Under the pieces are notes generated by a model, which saw only the letters and a list, made by a program, of their open reading frames with translations, made no database searches and had not been told where the DNA came from. The position numbers were made by a program, and so were the translations under genes. Below, piece after piece: positions 36,530 through 52,452 of a stretch of DNA of 64,000 nt. This stretch comes from an uncultured Sterolibacterium sp. GTDB lineage: Bacteria; Pseudomonadota; Gammaproteobacteria; Burkholderiales; Rhodocyclaceae. The stretch lies in contig CAIVDC010000070.1 of assembly GCA_903904605.1 (NCBI GenBank), positions 29,714 to 93,713 on the forward strand. Direction: 5' to 3'. Numbering within the stretch: position 1 is the first letter of the stretch; the number at the start of each line of letters is the position of its first letter.

Positions 36530-37762
36530 ATGGCCAAGGAAAGAATACTCGCGATGGTCCTCGCCGGCGGAGCAGGCACGAGGCTCACGCCGCTCACGTC
36601 GGAACGCTCCAAACCCGCAGTGCCGTTCGGCGGCCGCTACCGGATCGTGGATTTCGCGCTTTCGAACCTGGTGAATTCGGAAATCTATTCGATCTACATC
36701 CTGGTGCAATACCGCTCGCAGTCCCTGATCGAGCACATCCGCAACGCCTGGGTACTCGCGCCCATCATCTCCGATCATTTCGTCACGGTGGTGCCGCCGC
36801 AGATGCACGAGGCCCAGGAAGGATTCGCCGGCACGGCCGATGCGGTGTACCAGAACCTGAACCTGATCCGCCACGAGAATCCGACCCTGGTGGTGGTGTT
36901 CGGCGCCGACCACATCTATCGCATGGACGTCGGCCAGATGATCGCCTTTCACCGCAGCCGCAACGCCGACGTCACCGTCGCCGCGCTGCCGGTGCCGCGA
37001 GCCGAAGCCCGGGCATTCGGCGTCATCGGCGTGGACGGCGAAGGCCGGGTGCTGGAGTTCCAGGAAAAGCCCGACCAGCCGAAAGCGCTGCCCGCGGACC
37101 CGGAGCGCGCCTATGCTTCGATGGGCAATTATGTCTTCAATGCCGACGTGCTGATCAAGGCATTACAGGAAGCCAACCTGCGCGGCGAGCACGACTTCGG
37201 GCGCCACGTCCTGCCCCGCCTGGTCGACACGCACCGGCTCTATGCCTACGACTTTTCCGCCAACAAGGTGCCGGGCATACAAGCGTACGAGGAGCAAGGC
37301 TACTGGCGCGACGTCGGCACGCTCGACGCCTACTACGCCGCGGCCATGGATACGCTGGGCCTGCAGCCGAAGTTCGACCTGTTCAATCCCCGCTGGCCGA
37401 TCCGCTCGACCGGCTACCAGGGGCCGACCGCCCGCATCGGCGTCGCGCGCATAGAGAGGAGCGACATCGCCGCAGGGGGCGTGATCAGGGACGCGACCAT
37501 CCGCAATTCGGTGATCCGCCGCGAGGTGACGATAGAGGAGGACGTGGTCGTCGAGGACTGCGTGATCATGGACTTCTGCGTGCTGAAGAAGGGCGCGCGG
37601 CTGCGCCGGACGATCGTCGACCGCTACAATGTCATCGAAGCCGGGGCGCGGATCGGCTACGACCTCGAGGCCGACAGGCGCCGCTACACGGTGAGCGAAT
37701 CGGGGATCGTCGTGGTGCCGCTCGCCGGGCCCAACACACGGTCGGAGCGCTACGCCGAATGA
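36530..37762 (+). CDS. glgC: Glucose-1-phosphate adenylyltransferase
   Basis: MVLAGGAGTRLTPLTSERSKPAVPFGGRYRIVDFALSNLVNS; WRDVGTLDAYYAA. Confidence 0.95.
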   Translation: MAKERILAMVLAGGAGTRLTPLTSERSKPAVPFGGRYRIVDFALSNLVNSEIYSIYILVQYRSQSLIEHIRNAWVLAPIISDHFVTVVPPQMHEAQEGFAGTADAVYQNLNLIRHENPTLVVVFGADHIYRMDVGQMIAFHRSRNADVTVAALPVPRAEARAFGVIGVDGEGRVLEFQEKPDQPKALPADPERAYASMGNYVFNADVLIKALQEANLRGEHDFGRHVLPRLVDTHRLYAYDFSANKVPGIQAYEEQGYWRDVGTLDAYYAAAMDTLGLQPKFDLFNPRWPIRSTGYQGPTARIGVARIERSDIAAGGVIRDATIRNSVIRREVTIEEDVVVEDCVIMDFCVLKKGARLRRTIVDRYNVIEAGARIGYDLEADRRRYTVSESGIVVVPLAGPNTRSERYAE

Positions 37763-37823
37763 GATCGATCGCCTGCACGGCGGCGCCACCCGCCATAGTG
37801 CATTTCCCCGGAAGACCTGATTG

Positions 37824-39965
37824 ATGAATCCGATCACCGCAGTCTGGCCCGGCCAGCCCAATCCCCGCGGGGCAACCTGGGACGGCGAGGGCGTCAACTT
37901 CGCGCTGTTTTCAGAAAACGCGCACAAGGTCGAACTGTGCCTCTTCGACGACGAAGGCCGGCGCGAGATACAGCGCATCGAGTTGCGCGAACAGACCGAC
38001 CTGGTCTGGCATTGCTATCTGCCCGAGGCGCGCCCGGGCCTGCTCTACGGCTATCGCGTGCACGGCCCGTACAAGCCCGAGGACGGGCACCGCTTCAACC
38101 CCAACAAGCTGCTGCTCGATCCCTATGCCAAGAACATCGCCGGCCAGGTGCGCTGGAGCGACGCGCTGTTCGGCTACACCGTCGGCAACAAACGCGAAGA
38201 CCTGTCGCTGGACCGCCGCGACAGCGCGCGCGGCATGCCCAAGTGCAAGGTGATCGATCCGGCCTTCACCTGGGGCGAGGACCGACGCCCGAAAGTGGCC
38301 TGGAACGACATGATCATCTACGAAGCGCACGTGCGCGGCTTCACCATGAGCCACCCGGAAGTCCCGCCGGCGATGCGCGGCACCTACGCGGGCCTGTCCA
38401 GCGCCCCGGCGATCGAGTACCTGAAGCGCCTGGGCGTCACCACAGTCGAACTGATGCCGGTGCATTCCTTCGTCGACGACCGCACGCTGGTCGAGCGCGG
38501 CCTGACCAACTACTGGGGCTACAACACCATCGGCTATTTTGCGCCCGAGGCGCGATACTCCGCCTCGGGCAAGGTGGCGGAGTTCAAGACCATGGTCAAG
38601 ACGCTGCACTCCGCCGGCCTCGAAGTCATACTCGACGTGGTCTACAACCATACCGCGGAAGGCAGCCAGCTGGGGCCGACGCTGTCCTTTCGCGGCGTGG
38701 ACAACGCCTCCTACTACCGCCTGACGCCGGAGAACAAGCGTTTCTACGCCGATTACACCGGCTGCGGCAACACTCTCAACATGGTTCATCCTCGCGTGCT
38801 GCAGCTGATGATGGACTCCCTGCGCTACTGGGTCGGCGAAATGCATGTCGACGGTTTCCGCTTCGACCTCGCTTCGGCGCTCGCCCGCGAACTGCATGCA
38901 GTGGACCGCCTCGGCGCATTTTTCGACATCCTGCGCCAGGATCCCATGCTGAGCGAAGTGAAGCTGATCGCCGAACCCTGGGATCTGGGCGAGGGCGGCT
39001 ACCAGGTAGGCAACTTCCCGACCGGCTGGTCGGAGTGGAACGACAAGTACCGCGACACCATGCGCGCCTACTGGAAGGGCGACGGCGGCCTGATCGGCGA
39101 ATTCGCCCAGCGCCTGACCGGCTCGAGCGACCTCTATGGGCACAGCGGCCGTCGCCCGCACGCCAGCATCAACTACGTCTGCGCCCACGACGGCTTCACG
39201 CTGGCCGACCTCGTTTCCTACAACGACAAGCACAACGAGGCCAACCAGGAGCACAACCGCGACGGCCACGACCACAACCTGTCGTGGAACTGCGGCGTCG
39301 AAGGCCCCAGCGACGACCCCGCGGTGCGCGCCTTGCGCGCCCGCCAGCAGCGCAACTTGATCGCAACGGTGCTGCTCTCGCAAGGGGTGCCGATGCTGCT
39401 CGCCGGAGACGAAGTCGGCCGCAGCCAGCAGGGCAACAACAACGCCTACTGCCAGGACGGCTTCTGGCTGGACTGGACCCGGGACGAGGAAAGGCGGAAG
39501 CTGCTGGCATTCACGCAGCGGGTCATCGCCATGCGCCGCGACCACCCGGTGTTCCGGCGCAGGCTCTTCTACAAGGGCCATGCCGAAAGCGGCCCGGGCG
39601 TCAAGGACATCGCCTGGCTGCGTCCGGAAGGCGGGGAAATGACCGACGACGAATGGAACAAGCACTATGCCCGCTGCCTCGGGGTGTACCTGGCGGGCCA
39701 GGCGCTGACCGAGACCGATCTGCGCGGCCGCCCGGTGCGCGACCTGAACTTCCTGCTGCTGTTCAACGCCCACCACGGACCAGTCCCCTTCAGGCTGCCC
39801 GATTGCGCCGGCGGCGACTGGCGCACCTTGATCGATACCGCCTTCGAGGACGGGCTGGAGATCGACGGCAGCTTCGCCGGCGGCGCCGACTACGAGCTTC
39901 AGGGACGCTCCCTGGTGCTGCTCAGGCAGGTGGACAGGACGCCCCGGGAGAATGGGGCGGAATGA
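37824..39965 (+). CDS. glgX: Glycogen debranching enzyme (isoamylase type)
   Basis: GATWDGEGVNFALFSENAHKVELCLFD; GTYAGLSSAPAIEYLKRLGVTTVELMPVHSF; NYWGYNTIGYFAPEARY. Confidence 0.94.
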   Translation: MNPITAVWPGQPNPRGATWDGEGVNFALFSENAHKVELCLFDDEGRREIQRIELREQTDLVWHCYLPEARPGLLYGYRVHGPYKPEDGHRFNPNKLLLDPYAKNIAGQVRWSDALFGYTVGNKREDLSLDRRDSARGMPKCKVIDPAFTWGEDRRPKVAWNDMIIYEAHVRGFTMSHPEVPPAMRGTYAGLSSAPAIEYLKRLGVTTVELMPVHSFVDDRTLVERGLTNYWGYNTIGYFAPEARYSASGKVAEFKTMVKTLHSAGLEVILDVVYNHTAEGSQLGPTLSFRGVDNASYYRLTPENKRFYADYTGCGNTLNMVHPRVLQLMMDSLRYWVGEMHVDGFRFDLASALARELHAVDRLGAFFDILRQDPMLSEVKLIAEPWDLGEGGYQVGNFPTGWSEWNDKYRDTMRAYWKGDGGLIGEFAQRLTGSSDLYGHSGRRPHASINYVCAHDGFTLADLVSYNDKHNEANQEHNRDGHDHNLSWNCGVEGPSDDPAVRALRARQQRNLIATVLLSQGVPMLLAGDEVGRSQQGNNNAYCQDGFWLDWTRDEERRKLLAFTQRVIAMRRDHPVFRRRLFYKGHAESGPGVKDIAWLRPEGGEMTDDEWNKHYARCLGVYLAGQALTETDLRGRPVRDLNFLLLFNAHHGPVPFRLPDCAGGDWRTLIDTAFEDGLEIDGSFAGGADYELQGRSLVLLRQVDRTPRENGAE

Positions 39966-41770
39966 AACATCGCCACGCCATGCCCTTCGGCGCGGAATTG
40001 CTGGTGGACGGCGCGACGCGCTTCCGCCTCTGGGCGCCCGGCGTGCGCCAAGTGATGCTCGAGACGGCCGTCGGGGAGGTCCGTTCCGACAGGGCGATGA
40101 CCGACGGGGGCGAGGGCTGGTTCGAGGCCGTCCTGGACGATGCGCCTGCGGGAACACGTTACGGCTATCGCACCGGCGATCTTCTCTTTCCCGACCCGGC
40201 CGCGCGCTGCAACCCGCAGGATGTGCATGGCCCGAGCATGGTGGTCGATCCGCTCGCCTTCGACTGGCAGGACGGCGGCTGGCTCGGCCGGGACTGGGAA
40301 GAAGCGGTGATCTACGAACTGCACATCGGCACCTTCACGCCCGAAGGGACCTTCGCGGCGGCGATCGGCCGGCTCGACTACCTCGCCGATCTCGGCGTCA
40401 GCGCGCTGGAAATCATGCCCGTCGCGGACTTTCCCGGGCGGCGCAACTGGGGCTACGACGGCGTCCTGCCCTTCGCGCCGGACGCCTCTTACGGACCCCC
40501 CGAGGATCTCAAGCGCCTGATCGAAGCCGCCCACCGGCGCGGCCTGATGGTCCTGCTCGACGTCGTCTACAACCATTTCGGGCCGGAAGGCAACTACCTC
40601 CACGCCTACGCGCCGCAGTTCTTCAATCCCCGCCACCACACCCCCTGGGGGGCGGCGATCAATTTCGACGGCGAGGGAAGTCGCACGGTGCGCGACTTCT
40701 TCATCCACAACGCGCTTTACTGGGTGGAGGAGTACCGCTGCGACGGGCTGCGCCTGGATGCGGTGCATGCCATCGCCGACGATTCCGAGCCCGATATCGT
40801 GACCGAGATCGCGCGCGCGCTGCGGCAAGGGCCGGGGCGCACACGGCAAATCCATCTGATCCTCGAGAACGACCGCAATGAGGTGCGCTACCTCGCGCGC
40901 GACGCCGCGAGCGCGCAATGGAACGACGACATCCACCATGCCTGCCACATCCTGACCACGGGGGAGGCGGACGGCTACTACGAGGACTATGCCCAGCGGC
41001 CGCTCTGGTACCTCGGGCGCAGCCTCGCCCAGGGCTTCGCCTACCAGGGCGAGGCATCGGTGCATCGCGGCGGCGCCCCGCGCGGCGAGCCCAGCGCGCA
41101 TCTTCCGGCGACAGCTTTCGTCTCCTTCTTGCAGACCCACGACCAGGTCGGCAACCGGGCGCTGGGCGAGCGCCTGTGCGCCCTCGCAAAGCCGCAGGCG
41201 CTGCGCGCGGCGGCGGCCTGCCTGCTGCTCGCGCCCGCGCCGCCGCTCCTGTTCATGGGCGAGGAATTCGCGGCGAGCACCCCCTTTCTCTTCTTCTGCG
41301 ATTTCGGGCCGGAACTCGCCGCCGCCGTCACGAACGGACGGCGCCAGGAGTTTTCCCGCTTCGCGCGCTTTCGCGATGGCGCCGCGCAGGCGGCCATTCC
41401 CGACCCGAACGACCCGGCGACCTTCGCCGCGTCCAAGCTGCGCTGGGACGAGACCGGCCGTCCGCCCCACAGCGATTGGCTGGCCTTCTACCGCGAACTG
41501 CTCGCCTTGCGCCGCAGGACCATCGTGCCGCGTCTGGCCGGCATGCGCCCGGGCGGCGATTTCCGGATCGAGGATGGCGTGCTGCATGTGGGCTGGACCC
41601 TGGGCGACGGCTCGCGACTGAATCTCGCCGCGAATTTCTCGGCAAGCGCCAGCGCCTTCATCACCCTGCCGCCCGGCGAGATGCTGTACGCGAGTTCGCG
41701 CATCGCCCGGCGAATCGGGCCATGCGCGCTGCCGGCCTGGACAGCGGCCTATTTTCTGGAGGCGAGATGA
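39962..41770 (+). CDS. treZ: Maltooligosyltrehalose trehalohydrolase
   Basis: FGAELLVDGATRFRLWAPGVRQVML; RRNWGYDGVLPFAPDASYGPPEDLKRLI; ATG overlaps glgX stop. Confidence 0.93.
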   Translation: MKHRHAMPFGAELLVDGATRFRLWAPGVRQVMLETAVGEVRSDRAMTDGGEGWFEAVLDDAPAGTRYGYRTGDLLFPDPAARCNPQDVHGPSMVVDPLAFDWQDGGWLGRDWEEAVIYELHIGTFTPEGTFAAAIGRLDYLADLGVSALEIMPVADFPGRRNWGYDGVLPFAPDASYGPPEDLKRLIEAAHRRGLMVLLDVVYNHFGPEGNYLHAYAPQFFNPRHHTPWGAAINFDGEGSRTVRDFFIHNALYWVEEYRCDGLRLDAVHAIADDSEPDIVTEIARALRQGPGRTRQIHLILENDRNEVRYLARDAASAQWNDDIHHACHILTTGEADGYYEDYAQRPLWYLGRSLAQGFAYQGEASVHRGGAPRGEPSAHLPATAFVSFLQTHDQVGNRALGERLCALAKPQALRAAAACLLLAPAPPLLFMGEEFAASTPFLFFCDFGPELAAAVTNGRRQEFSRFARFRDGAAQAAIPDPNDPATFAASKLRWDETGRPPHSDWLAFYRELLALRRRTIVPRLAGMRPGGDFRIEDGVLHVGWTLGDGSRLNLAANFSASASAFITLPPGEMLYASSRIARRIGPCALPAWTAAYFLEAR

Positions 41771-41882
41771 CGACCTTCCCCCCGGCCCCCTTCCCGAGGC
41801 AGGGGGTGATGGATGTTCAGCCGCTGTCGCGGCTTCCAAGCCATGACTTGCCGCCTTCTCGGGGCGGCCCTTCGGAGGCGGC

Positions 41883-41886
<4 letters not shown>
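41767..41886 (+). CDS. Possible 39-aa bridging ORF between treZ and malQ-treY
   Basis: ATG at 41767 in an ATGA overlap with the treZ stop; TGA at 41884-41886 in an ATGA overlap with the malQ-treY start. Confidence 0.3.
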
Positions 41887-47040
<5,154 letters not shown>

Positions 47041-47060
<20 letters not shown>

Positions 47061-47970
47061 CATCGACTCCTTCAATGTCGCCCAGGGGGACCATGCCCTG
47101 ATCACCCTGCTGCGGATCGTGCTGATCGCCGTGGCGGCGTGGATTGCGCTCGGCGTGATGCAGCGCCTGATACGTCTGTTCCGCGAGCGGATCACGCGCG
47201 GCATGGACGATTCAGAGCAGGTGAAGCGGGCCGCGACGCTCGGCCGGGTGTTCCGCTACATCGCCTCGGTGCTGGTTCTAGTGGTTGCGACCACCCTGAT
47301 CCTGAGCGAACTGGGCATCGCCGTCGCGCCGATACTCGGCGCCGCCGGCGTCGTCGGCCTGGCCGTGGGTTTCGGCGCGCAGAGCCTGGTCAAGGATTTT
47401 TTCACGGGCTTTTTCATCCTGCTCGAGAACCAGATGCGCCAGGGCGACGTCGTCGAGATCGCCGGCAAGGCCGGCCTGGTCGAGGAAGTCACGCTGCGCT
47501 ACGTGAGGCTGCGCGATTATGACGGCAACGTCCATTACATCTCCAACGGCCTGATCACCACGGTCACCAACATGAGCCGCGGCTTCGCCCAGGCGGTCAT
47601 GGACGTCGGCGTCGCCTACCGCGAGGATACCGACGAGGCGGTCGGCGTGATGCGCGAGATCGGCGCGGGAATGCGCGCCGATCCGGTTTTCGGCGCCAAG
47701 ATTCTCGACGAACTGGAGGTCGCCGGCGTGGACAAGTGGGCCGACTCGGCGGTGATCTTGCGTTGCCGCTTCAAGGTGCTGCCGCTCGAGCAGTGGAGCG
47801 TGCGCCGCGAATTCCTGCGCCGCCTCAAGAAGGCTTTCGATGCGCGCGGCATCGAGATCCCCTTCCCGCACCTCACCGTCTATGCCGGCGTGGCCAAGGA
47901 CAGCACGGCCCCGCCCTTCCGGGTGCACGGTCCGGATGCTGGCACCGGAAAGAATGCCGAGCAGGCATGA
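47041..47970 (+). CDS. MscS-family mechanosensitive ion channel
   Basis: GTG start after AGGAG; ILGAAGVVGLAVGFGAQSLVKDFFTGFFILLENQMRQGDVVEIAGKAGLVEEVTLRYVRLRD; overlaps the malQ-treY 3' end. Confidence 0.87.
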
Positions 47971-49178
47971 GGAGAGTGCCGCCGCTCCCGGTTGAAGGCG
48001 GCGCCCTCGTCGAAGCCTGCCGGCAGAAATCGATCGAATTGTTGAAGCGCAACCTGTCGCCTGCCGGCATCCTCGCCGCGACGCCCGGCGCGCGCGCCCA
48101 GTCGCGCGGCTATGCGGCGATCTTCGGGCGCGACGCCGCGGTCTGCGCGATCGGCATGGCACTTTCGGGCGACGCCCATCTGACGCGGGAGGCGGCCACC
48201 GGCTTGCTGACGCTGGCCCGGCACCAGGCGGCGAACGGCCAGATTGCGAAATTCGTCGACGTGGCGGGGCAGGAGGCCGACTTCTGGTATCTGGGCTGCA
48301 TCGATGCGACCCTGTGGTGGCTGATCGCGCTCGCCTTTCTCGACCGCCGAGACCCCGCCGGCGGACTCAGGGAAAAGCTCGCCCCCGAAGTTGCGAAGGC
48401 TCTCCAGTGGCTGGCCGCGCAGGAGCATCAGCGCTTCTTCCTGCTGCAGCAGAACGAGGCCAGCGACTGGGCCGACATCATGCCGCGCTCGGGCTTCGTG
48501 CTCTACAGCAACGCCTTGTGGTACTGCGTCAAGCGCCACTATGGCCTGCCTCAAGCGGACGAGACGCGGGCGAATTTCAACCAGCTGTTCCACCCCTTCA
48601 GCGCCGATCTGGCCGAATATCGCCGGGCGCGACTCCTGGCGCACTACGTCAAGCGCCGTGCGAAAAACCGCGATCTCTATCTTTCCTTCGTGAACTTTTC
48701 CTTTTTTGGCGACGAAGGCGATGTCTTCGGCAATCTCCTCGCCCTGCTCTGCGGGCTGGCCGACGGCGAGGCGGAACGGCGCACCTTGCGCGCCCTGGAC
48801 CGCGCGGGCGTAGCCTCGCCCTGGCCGGTGCGCGTGGTTTGCCAGCCGATCGCGATGGACGACCCGCTGTGGCGGGCGTACATGTCGCGGCACCGGCAGA
48901 ACCTGGAGTGGCAATACCACAACGGCGGCATCTGGCCCTTCGTCGGCGGCTTCTGGGTCGCCGCCCTGGCCCAGGCCGGCGAACGCGATCGGGCCAATGC
49001 CGAACTCGCGAATCTCGCGGCCGTCAATGCGCAAGACGGCTGGGCCTTCAACGAGTGGCTGCACGGCTGCACCCTGGCGCCGGGCGGGATGCGCGGACAG
49101 TCCTGGAATGCCGCGTCCTTTCTCATGGCCTGCGACGCCGTGCGCGCCGGGGGCCGCGCCTGCGCCCTCAAGCCGTGA
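47967..49178 (+). CDS. (alpha/alpha)6-type glycosidase, glycogen-debranching/GH100-like
   Basis: 404 aa; AQSRGYAAIFGRDAAVCAIGMAL, EADFWYLGCIDATLWWLIAL, WQYHNGGIWPFVGGFWVAAL; ATGA overlap with MscS gene. Confidence 0.72.
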   Translation: MRRVPPLPVEGGALVEACRQKSIELLKRNLSPAGILAATPGARAQSRGYAAIFGRDAAVCAIGMALSGDAHLTREAATGLLTLARHQAANGQIAKFVDVAGQEADFWYLGCIDATLWWLIALAFLDRRDPAGGLREKLAPEVAKALQWLAAQEHQRFFLLQQNEASDWADIMPRSGFVLYSNALWYCVKRHYGLPQADETRANFNQLFHPFSADLAEYRRARLLAHYVKRRAKNRDLYLSFVNFSFFGDEGDVFGNLLALLCGLADGEAERRTLRALDRAGVASPWPVRVVCQPIAMDDPLWRAYMSRHRQNLEWQYHNGGIWPFVGGFWVAALAQAGERDRANAELANLAAVNAQDGWAFNEWLHGCTLAPGGMRGQSWNAASFLMACDAVRAGGRACALKP

Positions 49179-49904: not shown

Positions 49905-52136
49905 TCACGACTCGCCGCGGCCGGTCTTGTCGATCAGTCGGCTGCGGCGCCTCATCGCCGCCGCATCGAGGAGCATGCGACCGGCCCAGCGGAAGACATT
50001 GAATTCGGCCACCAGCCCGCGCATCAGGCGCATCCGGTCGCGGCTCTCGGTGACCGGCATGGTCAGGGCCAGATGCAGGGCGGCGGCGCACTGGTCGGCG
50101 TCGTAGGGATTGACGATCAGGGCCTCCGGCAGTTCCCGGGCGGCGCCGGTGAACTGCGAGAGTATCAGCACGCCGCGCTCGTCGTCGCGGGCTGCGACGA
50201 ATTCCTTGGCGACCAGGTTCATGCCGTCGTGCAGGCTGCTGACGAAACACAGATCGGCGGCGCGGAAATACGCATAGACCTCGCGCGGCTCGTGGTGCTC
50301 GATCCTGAGCACGATGGGCGGCGGCCCCTGATGCCTGAAACGGCTGTTGATGTGCGCGGCCAGGGCCCGCACCTGCGCCTCGTGATGCTCGTATTCGTCG
50401 ATGCCCGATCTCGTCGGCGCGGCGATCTGAACGAAGCTGAAGCGCCCGACCCACTCGGGATTCAGTTCCAGCAGGCGCTCGATGGCACGGAAGCGTTCCA
50501 GGATGCCCTTGGTGTAGTCGAGCCGGTCGACGCCGATGCCGAGCATGTGTTCCGGCGGCAGGTCGTTCATCCGGCGGATGTCGCTGCGGCAGTCCGGCAC
50601 GGACTTCTCCAGCATTTCCGCATCGGGCGGCCAGGCGACGGAAATCGGGTAGCGGCGCACGGCGGTGGGCTTGCCGCCGAAGGACACGGTGAAGGATTCG
50701 CGATCGACCCGCGCCTCGAGAAAGCGATCCACGGTGTCGACGAAATTGTTGCAGTGGAACTGGGTATGGAAGCCGAGAATGCTGCTGCCCAGGAGCCCCG
50801 CGAGCAACTCGTCGCGCCAGGGGCAGATGGCGAAGGACTCCGGGTTGGGCCAGGGGATGTGCCAGAAGGCGATGATCGTGGCATCCGGCAATTGCTCGCG
50901 GAGCATCGCTGGCAACAGGGCGAGATGGTAGTCCTGGACCAGGACGATGGGATCGCGAGTCTTGGCCTCGCTCGCCACCGCCTGCGCGAACTTGCGGTTG
51001 ACCGCGACGTACTGCGCCCAGTCGGCCGAGCGGAAGATCGGCCGGACATGGGCGATATGGCACAGCGGCCAGAGCCCTTCGTTGGAGAAGCCGTAGTAGT
51101 AGCCCGCCTCCTCCTCCGTAGTCAGCCATACGCGGCGGATCTGGTAGGCGGGCTTGTCCGGCGGCACGGCGACGCGGTCGTTCTGGTCCGCCGCCTCCCG
51201 GTCGGCCGAGCCGCTGCCGTGGGCGATCCAGGTGCCCGAGCAGGCGCGCATGATCGGCTCGAGCGCCGTGACCAGGCCGCTGGCCGGCCGCGTCACCTCG
51301 ATGCGTTCGCCGCGGCGCTGGTGAATGTAGGGCTCACGGTTGGACACCACGATGACATCCTCGCCGCGCAGTTCGCCATGCAGGATCGCGCGCAGGGACT
51401 CCGGCGACCAGGTCACCTGGCTCTCGTCGCGCGCGCGCGTCTCGGCCTCCAGTTCGCTGATCAAGCGCTGCAGGTCGCGGGCGATGGGCTTGAACTCGGG
51501 CAGACTGGGCGGCGCACTCGGCCCGGGCTGGCGCAGCAGCCCTTCGCCGCGCAGCAGGGCGCGCATGCCGGCCATCCAGCCGCGCCAAGAGAGTTGGGCA
51601 ATGACCACCGTGACCAGCGAGACCACGGCCGCCAGGCCCATGAACAGGTAGAAGACGTAGCGCTTGGTCTCCTCGCTGCGGCGGGTGACGAAACTCATGT
51701 CGTGCACCAGCACCAGGCGGCCGTCCGGCGCCGCCTCGCTGGCCATCGGCTGCACCGTCACATGCAAGGGCCCCTTGGCGCTGGGCAGCAAGTGATCGTG
51801 GGCGCCGTCCCAGCGGCCGAGATCGTCGCAGCGGATCTCGTTGGGCAGCGAGCGGCTGGCCACCGCCGTGGCCGTCGGCGAAGCGCAGTAGCCTACGGCG
51901 AAGAGCCGCTCGTCGCGGGTGATGCGGTTGAAGAATTCCCTGATCTGGACCTTCTTGCCGGCCGCCAGCTGCTCCTGCAACGGTTCCTGGATGGCACTGG
52001 CGAGCAGCGAGGAACGGGTGTCGAGGTCATGCACGAACCAGCTCAGCGTCAATTGGTCGACCAAGGGCGCGATGGCATAGGCGATGCCGGCCAGAACAAT
52101 CATCAATGGCAGGACGAAGCGTAAAGACAACCTCAT
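49905..52136 (-). CDS. otsA: Trehalose-6-phosphate synthase (GT20) with N-terminal two-TM extracytoplasmic module
   Basis: TM1 ([19 protein letters not shown]), ~140-aa extracytoplasmic part, TM2 ([23 protein letters not shown]), linker, then GT20 ([66 protein letters not shown]). Confidence 0.92.
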
Positions 52137-52452
52137 GCGCTTACTCTTTCGGGCAATTTGACGTCAAAATACGTGACGCTTCAAAATACTGCGGGAGATT
52201 ACAAGACACCTGCATTCTACTCTTCTACGCTTTTCCCCCGGATTCGCACCATGGTTCCGGCGCATGAATCCGCGGACACTTCCCGCCGCTGCCGGAGAAA
52301 CGCCCGACATCACGCGTTCAGGGGAAAGTATTCCGAAGCCGCCCTGGCTTCGTCTGCCGGTATTATCATTACCGATACCGATGCACACCGTCCCGGCACA
52401 TCATGAATCATGGCCCTCGGGATGTTCCACCACATTTGCGAGAGCAATCAAA

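Follow-up and report, generated by a model that had tools for sequence, protein, structure and literature searches.

Can a trehalose-6-phosphate (T6P) synthase be regulated from the far side of the membrane by a domain of its own? The control of trehalose synthesis is usually ascribed to transcription, to the supply of substrate or to allosteric effectors that are soluble, and the question is raised here by a gene of an uncultured Sterolibacterium sp. that joins a GT20 glycosyltransferase domain to a membrane module. The gene lies in the window, as we call the whole stretch of 64,000 nt that was analysed (CAIVDC010000070.1, positions 29,714-93,713 of the forward strand; assembly GCA_903904605.1). 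Our answer, which taken as a whole we regard as reasonably probable, is that it encodes a conserved membrane-bound T6P synthase whose CACHE/PDC-like outer domain regulates GT20 across the membrane.

The gene, its neighbours and its relatives

The reading frame starts with an ATG, and its product is ordered as a first transmembrane helix (TM1), an outer domain, a second transmembrane helix (TM2), a helical linker and a complete GT20 domain (Table 1), the last of these matched by Pfam PF00982 with an E value of 2.2e-116 (389.9 bits against a gathering cut-off of 32.5). A first-pass annotation had described such a sensor-kinase-like arrangement ahead of GT20, and hydropathy, Pfam and AlphaFold bear out this membrane-anchored layout; the periplasmic part, put there at about 140 residues, is slightly shorter here (~133). 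We infer that residues 26-158 lie outside the inner membrane and GT20 in the cytoplasm, positive-inside counting being weakly informative for the topology of this protein.

Table 1. Positions in the window of the GT20 gene, its parts and its neighbours
Feature	Position	Strand	Basis
Membrane-anchored GT20 (T6P synthase-like) gene, 743 aa	49905..52136	-	ORF, Pfam GT20, homologues
GAAAGAG, ribosome-binding-site-like, 7 nt before the GT20-gene ATG	52144..52150	-	sequence
TM1, about residues 7-25, consensus rlslRF..PL	52062..52118	-	hydropathy and alignment
Extracytoplasmic CACHE/PDC-like domain, residues 26-158	51663..52061	-	AlphaFold, Foldseek, conservation
Cys84 codon	51885..51887	-	
Cys103 codon	51828..51830	-	
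TM2, about residues 159-182	51591..51662	-	hydropathy; continuous AlphaFold helix
Predicted cytoplasmic linker, residues 183-258 (~75): end of the TM2 helix, flexible break, two helices	51363..51590	-	
GT20 catalytic domain, residues 260-722	49971..51359	-	Pfam; E. coli OtsA alignment; fold match to OtsA structures
His306 codon, Trp-to-His change near the active site	51219-51221	-	alignment
otsB, T6P phosphatase, 244 aa	49168..49902	-	TIGR00685
GH100/GDE_C-like glycoside hydrolase gene, convergent with otsB	47967-49178	+	
MscS-type mechanosensitive channel gene, convergent neighbour	47056..47970	+	Pfam
MalQ-TreY fusion gene, alternative glycogen-to-trehalose route	41883..47060	+	NF011077, 2330 bits (cut-off 2148)

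This ORF is no chance reading frame, because its start and the order of its two transmembrane helices recur in more than 100 homologues and 17 of its N-terminal columns are invariant. The search for fusions of transmembrane segments with GT20 that the first-pass annotation had proposed thus returned relatives from several phyla with the same start and domain order, and a start region of the form M-rLSLRF-lPL is common to them. An internal start leaving a soluble GT20 protein, the outcome that the same annotation had named as fatal to its reading, is rejected, as is a pseudogene, by the conserved start and N-terminus and by purifying selection (dN/dS below 0.35, zero stops seen).

The protein type is widespread and unevenly distributed. 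A scan of genome contigs gave at least 599 stretches encoding it; the best 80 of these belong to Betaproteobacteria, Nitrospira, Geobacter, Smithella, other delta-type lineages, Bdellovibrionota, Gemmatimonadota and others, and nearly all of the 80 align from residue 1-3. In the bacterial family of the window it occurs in 36 of 151 genomes, and for 33 of the 36 the alignment begins no later than residue 9. No match came from three genomes of the window's own genus (G006, G071 and G119), so the gene is patchy even between close relatives. Two irregular copies were seen. One (L149, G1060:C53) has apparently lost TM2 and the first part of the linker by an in-frame deletion, with a second copy on another contig of the same genome, and reflects either degeneration or an assembly artefact; the other (L142, G116:C1:284500-287500) is a third copy split over two frames in a genome with two intact ones, and is likely a pseudogene.

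Phylogenetic analysis of 52 GT20 domains grouped every membrane-anchored member in a single clade (100/99), separate from soluble OtsA and from glucosylglycerol-phosphate synthase. Closest to this clade are soluble enzymes of haloarchaea, with a Deinococcus enzyme one step further out. These nearest soluble T6P synthases share the motifs GTWIA and FWHIPWP with the window protein and are 39-43% identical to it. GT20 proteins of about 34% identity from the same bacterial family were considered as a second OtsA type and rejected: the three that were read are HAD-GT20 fusions, and the single one scanned proved to be a glucosylglycerol-phosphate synthase, which passes TIGR02398 (742 bits, against 291 for the window protein). 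These fusions also have a GT20 domain and serve osmolyte synthesis, but are soluble. The membrane type (36 genomes) and the HAD type (18 genomes, a count for which three proteins were read and one scanned) occur together in none of the 151 family genomes (P 0.005 under independence, ignoring kinship), as if the two osmolyte routes replaced each other.

The otsB gene starts 2 bp past the stop codon of the GT20 gene in an operon-like linkage and scores 153.2 bits on TIGR00685 (cut-off 68.05); a genome-wide search found no other PF02358 match. A T6P phosphatase gene lies downstream on the same strand within 2.5 kb in 72 of 77 related loci. The window gene is likewise the sole GT20 match in its genome, which is 87% complete. 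A glycogen/trehalose cluster (GlgC, GlgX and the MalQ-TreY fusion; 36530-47060) adjoins otsAB, so the genome holds two potential trehalose routes. Where the window has the GH100/GDE_C-like gene convergent with otsB (Table 1), 49 of 80 related loci have next to otsAB a gene that we take to be GH15-like.

Fold and constraint of the outer domain

An AlphaFold model of residues 1-262, built with 76 sequences, has a mean pLDDT of 83.8, with outer-domain blocks at about 87-96. The predicted order is a long helix leading on from TM1, a helix at 62-75, a strand at 78-84, a helix at 103-109, three strands and a helix at 148-195 that crosses TM2. Foldseek searches of the PDB with the outer domain returned mostly sensor domains: a WalK-YycH model at E 8.6e-6, the solved KinD, WalK and CitA domains with probabilities of 0.99-1.00 but E values of 0.01-0.06, and, lower down, DctB, DcuS and chemoreceptors. 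Similarity to the solved domains is distant (E about 0.01-0.1, TM about 0.35-0.6). The predicted long N-terminal helix, sheet with its helix and C-terminal helix running into TM2 follow the CACHE/PDC fold, and with the histidine-kinase sensors of this type (WalK, KinD, CitA, DctB, DcuS) the protein shares both fold order and TM-domain-TM layout; their output, however, is a kinase, and here it is a biosynthetic glycosyltransferase.

There is no sequence match to those sensors at Pfam cut-offs. The listed Pfam Cache families gave zero matches among the 76 members, CHASE4 appeared weakly in 10 of them (best E 0.0016), and comparison of the N-terminus with Pfam, PHROG and PDB sequences gave no credible named relative. 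Adeno_E3B and GrlR were set aside as relatives of the N-terminus, being below cut-offs and resembling hydrophobic-segment noise. The predicted outer domain is therefore CACHE/PDC-like by fold, with no family membership by sequence. Of the CACHE- or HAMP-like structure that the first-pass annotation had asked about for residues 1-260, the CACHE part is supported by the model and its Foldseek matches, and the HAMP part is not: PF00672 matched neither the window protein nor any of the 76 members after TM2. The linker with charged helices that it had described was recovered as predicted helices at 213-238 and 245-255; ahead of them the helix is interrupted with low confidence around 202-205, or over 186-212 when the full-length protein is modelled. 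Because the linker is poorly predicted in that full-length model, the coupling path is not visible.

The 17 invariant columns of the 76-sequence alignment include W33, D37, R77, C84, C103, D146 and R153. Comparison of the window gene with eight close relatives gave a dN/dS of 0.06-0.33 for the outer domain and of 0.08-0.16 for GT20; purifying selection thus acts on the outer domain, though it evolves faster than the enzyme. Among 399 phylum and 350 order genomes the N-terminal module was seen solely in frames long enough for GT20, and no module with another output was found there beyond two marginal matches (E 0.008).

The main rival explanation is that the module is an anchor or scaffold that keeps T6P production on the inner membrane, close to OtsB, a transporter or envelope machinery, with no gating. 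The faster evolution of the outer domain would suit it, as would the failure to recognise a ligand motif or a HAMP domain, and so would the Aminobacter homologues, which keep one transmembrane helix, the linker and GT20; because these members do without the outer domain, the enzyme does not need it in every part of the clade. A folded, sensor-like domain of about 130 residues with seven such invariant positions would nevertheless be superfluous for anchoring, and the TM-domain-TM order persists even in a divergent subgroup (hhalign probability 97, E 5e-11). We consider anchoring without regulation unlikely, while regarding it as the most serious competitor. The first-pass annotation had also named a dispensable and unstructured periplasmic part as a refutation of its reading; this is not borne out, the part being predicted to be folded and its sequence being conserved under selection.

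A different reading of the same domain is that C84 and C103 let it respond to the redox state of the envelope or dock a partner protein; oxidation in the periplasm or stress on the envelope would then tune the enzyme, in place of osmolarity or a small ligand. Both cysteines are invariant in the 76 members; in the model one closes a strand and the other opens a helix, and Cys103 is a possible disulfide partner of Cys84. A plain structural disulfide would explain the invariant pair equally well, however, and the divergent subgroup lacks both residues; we think this reading improbable. Regulation by a sensor-like outer domain, whatever its cue, is the interpretation that we carry forward.

The GT20 domain and its product

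E. coli OtsA and the GT20 domain share 32% identity, and the fold of the latter matches T6P synthase structures, among them Mycobacterium thermoresistibile OtsA with a TM score of 0.90. The donor- and glucose-6-phosphate-binding residues of OtsA have been listed (PMC1769515; see also PMC5527307), and in our GT20 alignment the equivalents of E. coli Arg9, Gly22, Tyr76, Trp85, Asp130, His154, Arg262, Arg300, Asp361 and Glu369 are invariant. Trp40 of the PMC1769515 list could not be placed, E. coli having Trp39 and Trp42 when Met is counted; Trp39 is kept as W303, and Trp42 is replaced by His306 in all membrane-anchored members examined, whereas the soluble enzymes, those of haloarchaea and Deinococcus included, retain Trp. 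This replacement is a possible shift in substrate preference. Soluble OtsA (E. coli; M. thermoresistibile, PDB 5jij and 5jio) has the GT-B fold of GT20, the catalytic residues and the otsB linkage in common with the window protein, and differs from it in having neither membrane segments nor an outer domain. The residue alignment and TIGR00685 support a fused GT20 with an intact active site beside otsB.

Related proteins are named in the databases simply as trehalose-6-phosphate synthase. The window protein scores below the cut-offs of both the OtsA equivalog TIGR02400 (401.7 against 564.85 bits) and the glucosylglycerol-phosphate synthase model TIGR02398 (290.7 against 569 bits), and because of this T6P as the product is something we infer, from the conserved residues and the otsB linkage. 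That GT20 makes another phosphorylated glucoside, or no product at all, would accord with the low OtsA score and with a His306 fixed throughout the membrane clade examined, but is very improbable given that the catalytic and glucose-6-phosphate-phosphate-binding residues are kept, a curated T6P phosphatase gene adjoins, the glucosylglycerol-phosphate model fails too and T6P synthases fit best among solved structures.

Proposed mechanism and its meaning

The protein would act as a single membrane chain whose cytoplasmic GT20 domain makes T6P from a nucleotide-glucose and glucose-6-phosphate, to be dephosphorylated by the OtsB encoded next door. TM1 and TM2 would hold the CACHE/PDC-like domain outside the inner membrane, and its exit helix would continue through TM2 into the linker ahead of the N-terminal lobe of GT20. 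A ligand or a change of state in the outer domain would then most likely shift the exit helix and so alter the activity or the assembly of GT20, by analogy with sensor kinases and membrane diguanylate cyclases.

The outer domain would thus regulate the enzyme, and gating of GT20 by an external cue appears likely. The stronger proposal, that T6P synthesis is gated directly, through the membrane and without passing by way of transcription, by a ligand from outside or by the state of the envelope, making this a widespread one-component receptor with a biosynthetic output, is one that we put forward tentatively and hold to stop somewhat short of probable. That the cue is osmotic is a guess, suggested by the role that trehalose plays in general and by the nearby MscS gene, and by nothing else; of 80 related loci, only 4 have an MscS gene near the membrane GT20 gene. 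Our searches of the open-access literature turned up no account of a T6P synthase that carries a sensor-like domain.

If the sensor role is true, these proteins would link outside conditions directly to the synthesis of a stress sugar, in a clade that spans several phyla. Receptor-enzyme fusions would then extend from signalling outputs to primary metabolism, and what the receptor controls would be the flux through a central biosynthetic enzyme, in place of a second messenger or a phosphorelay.
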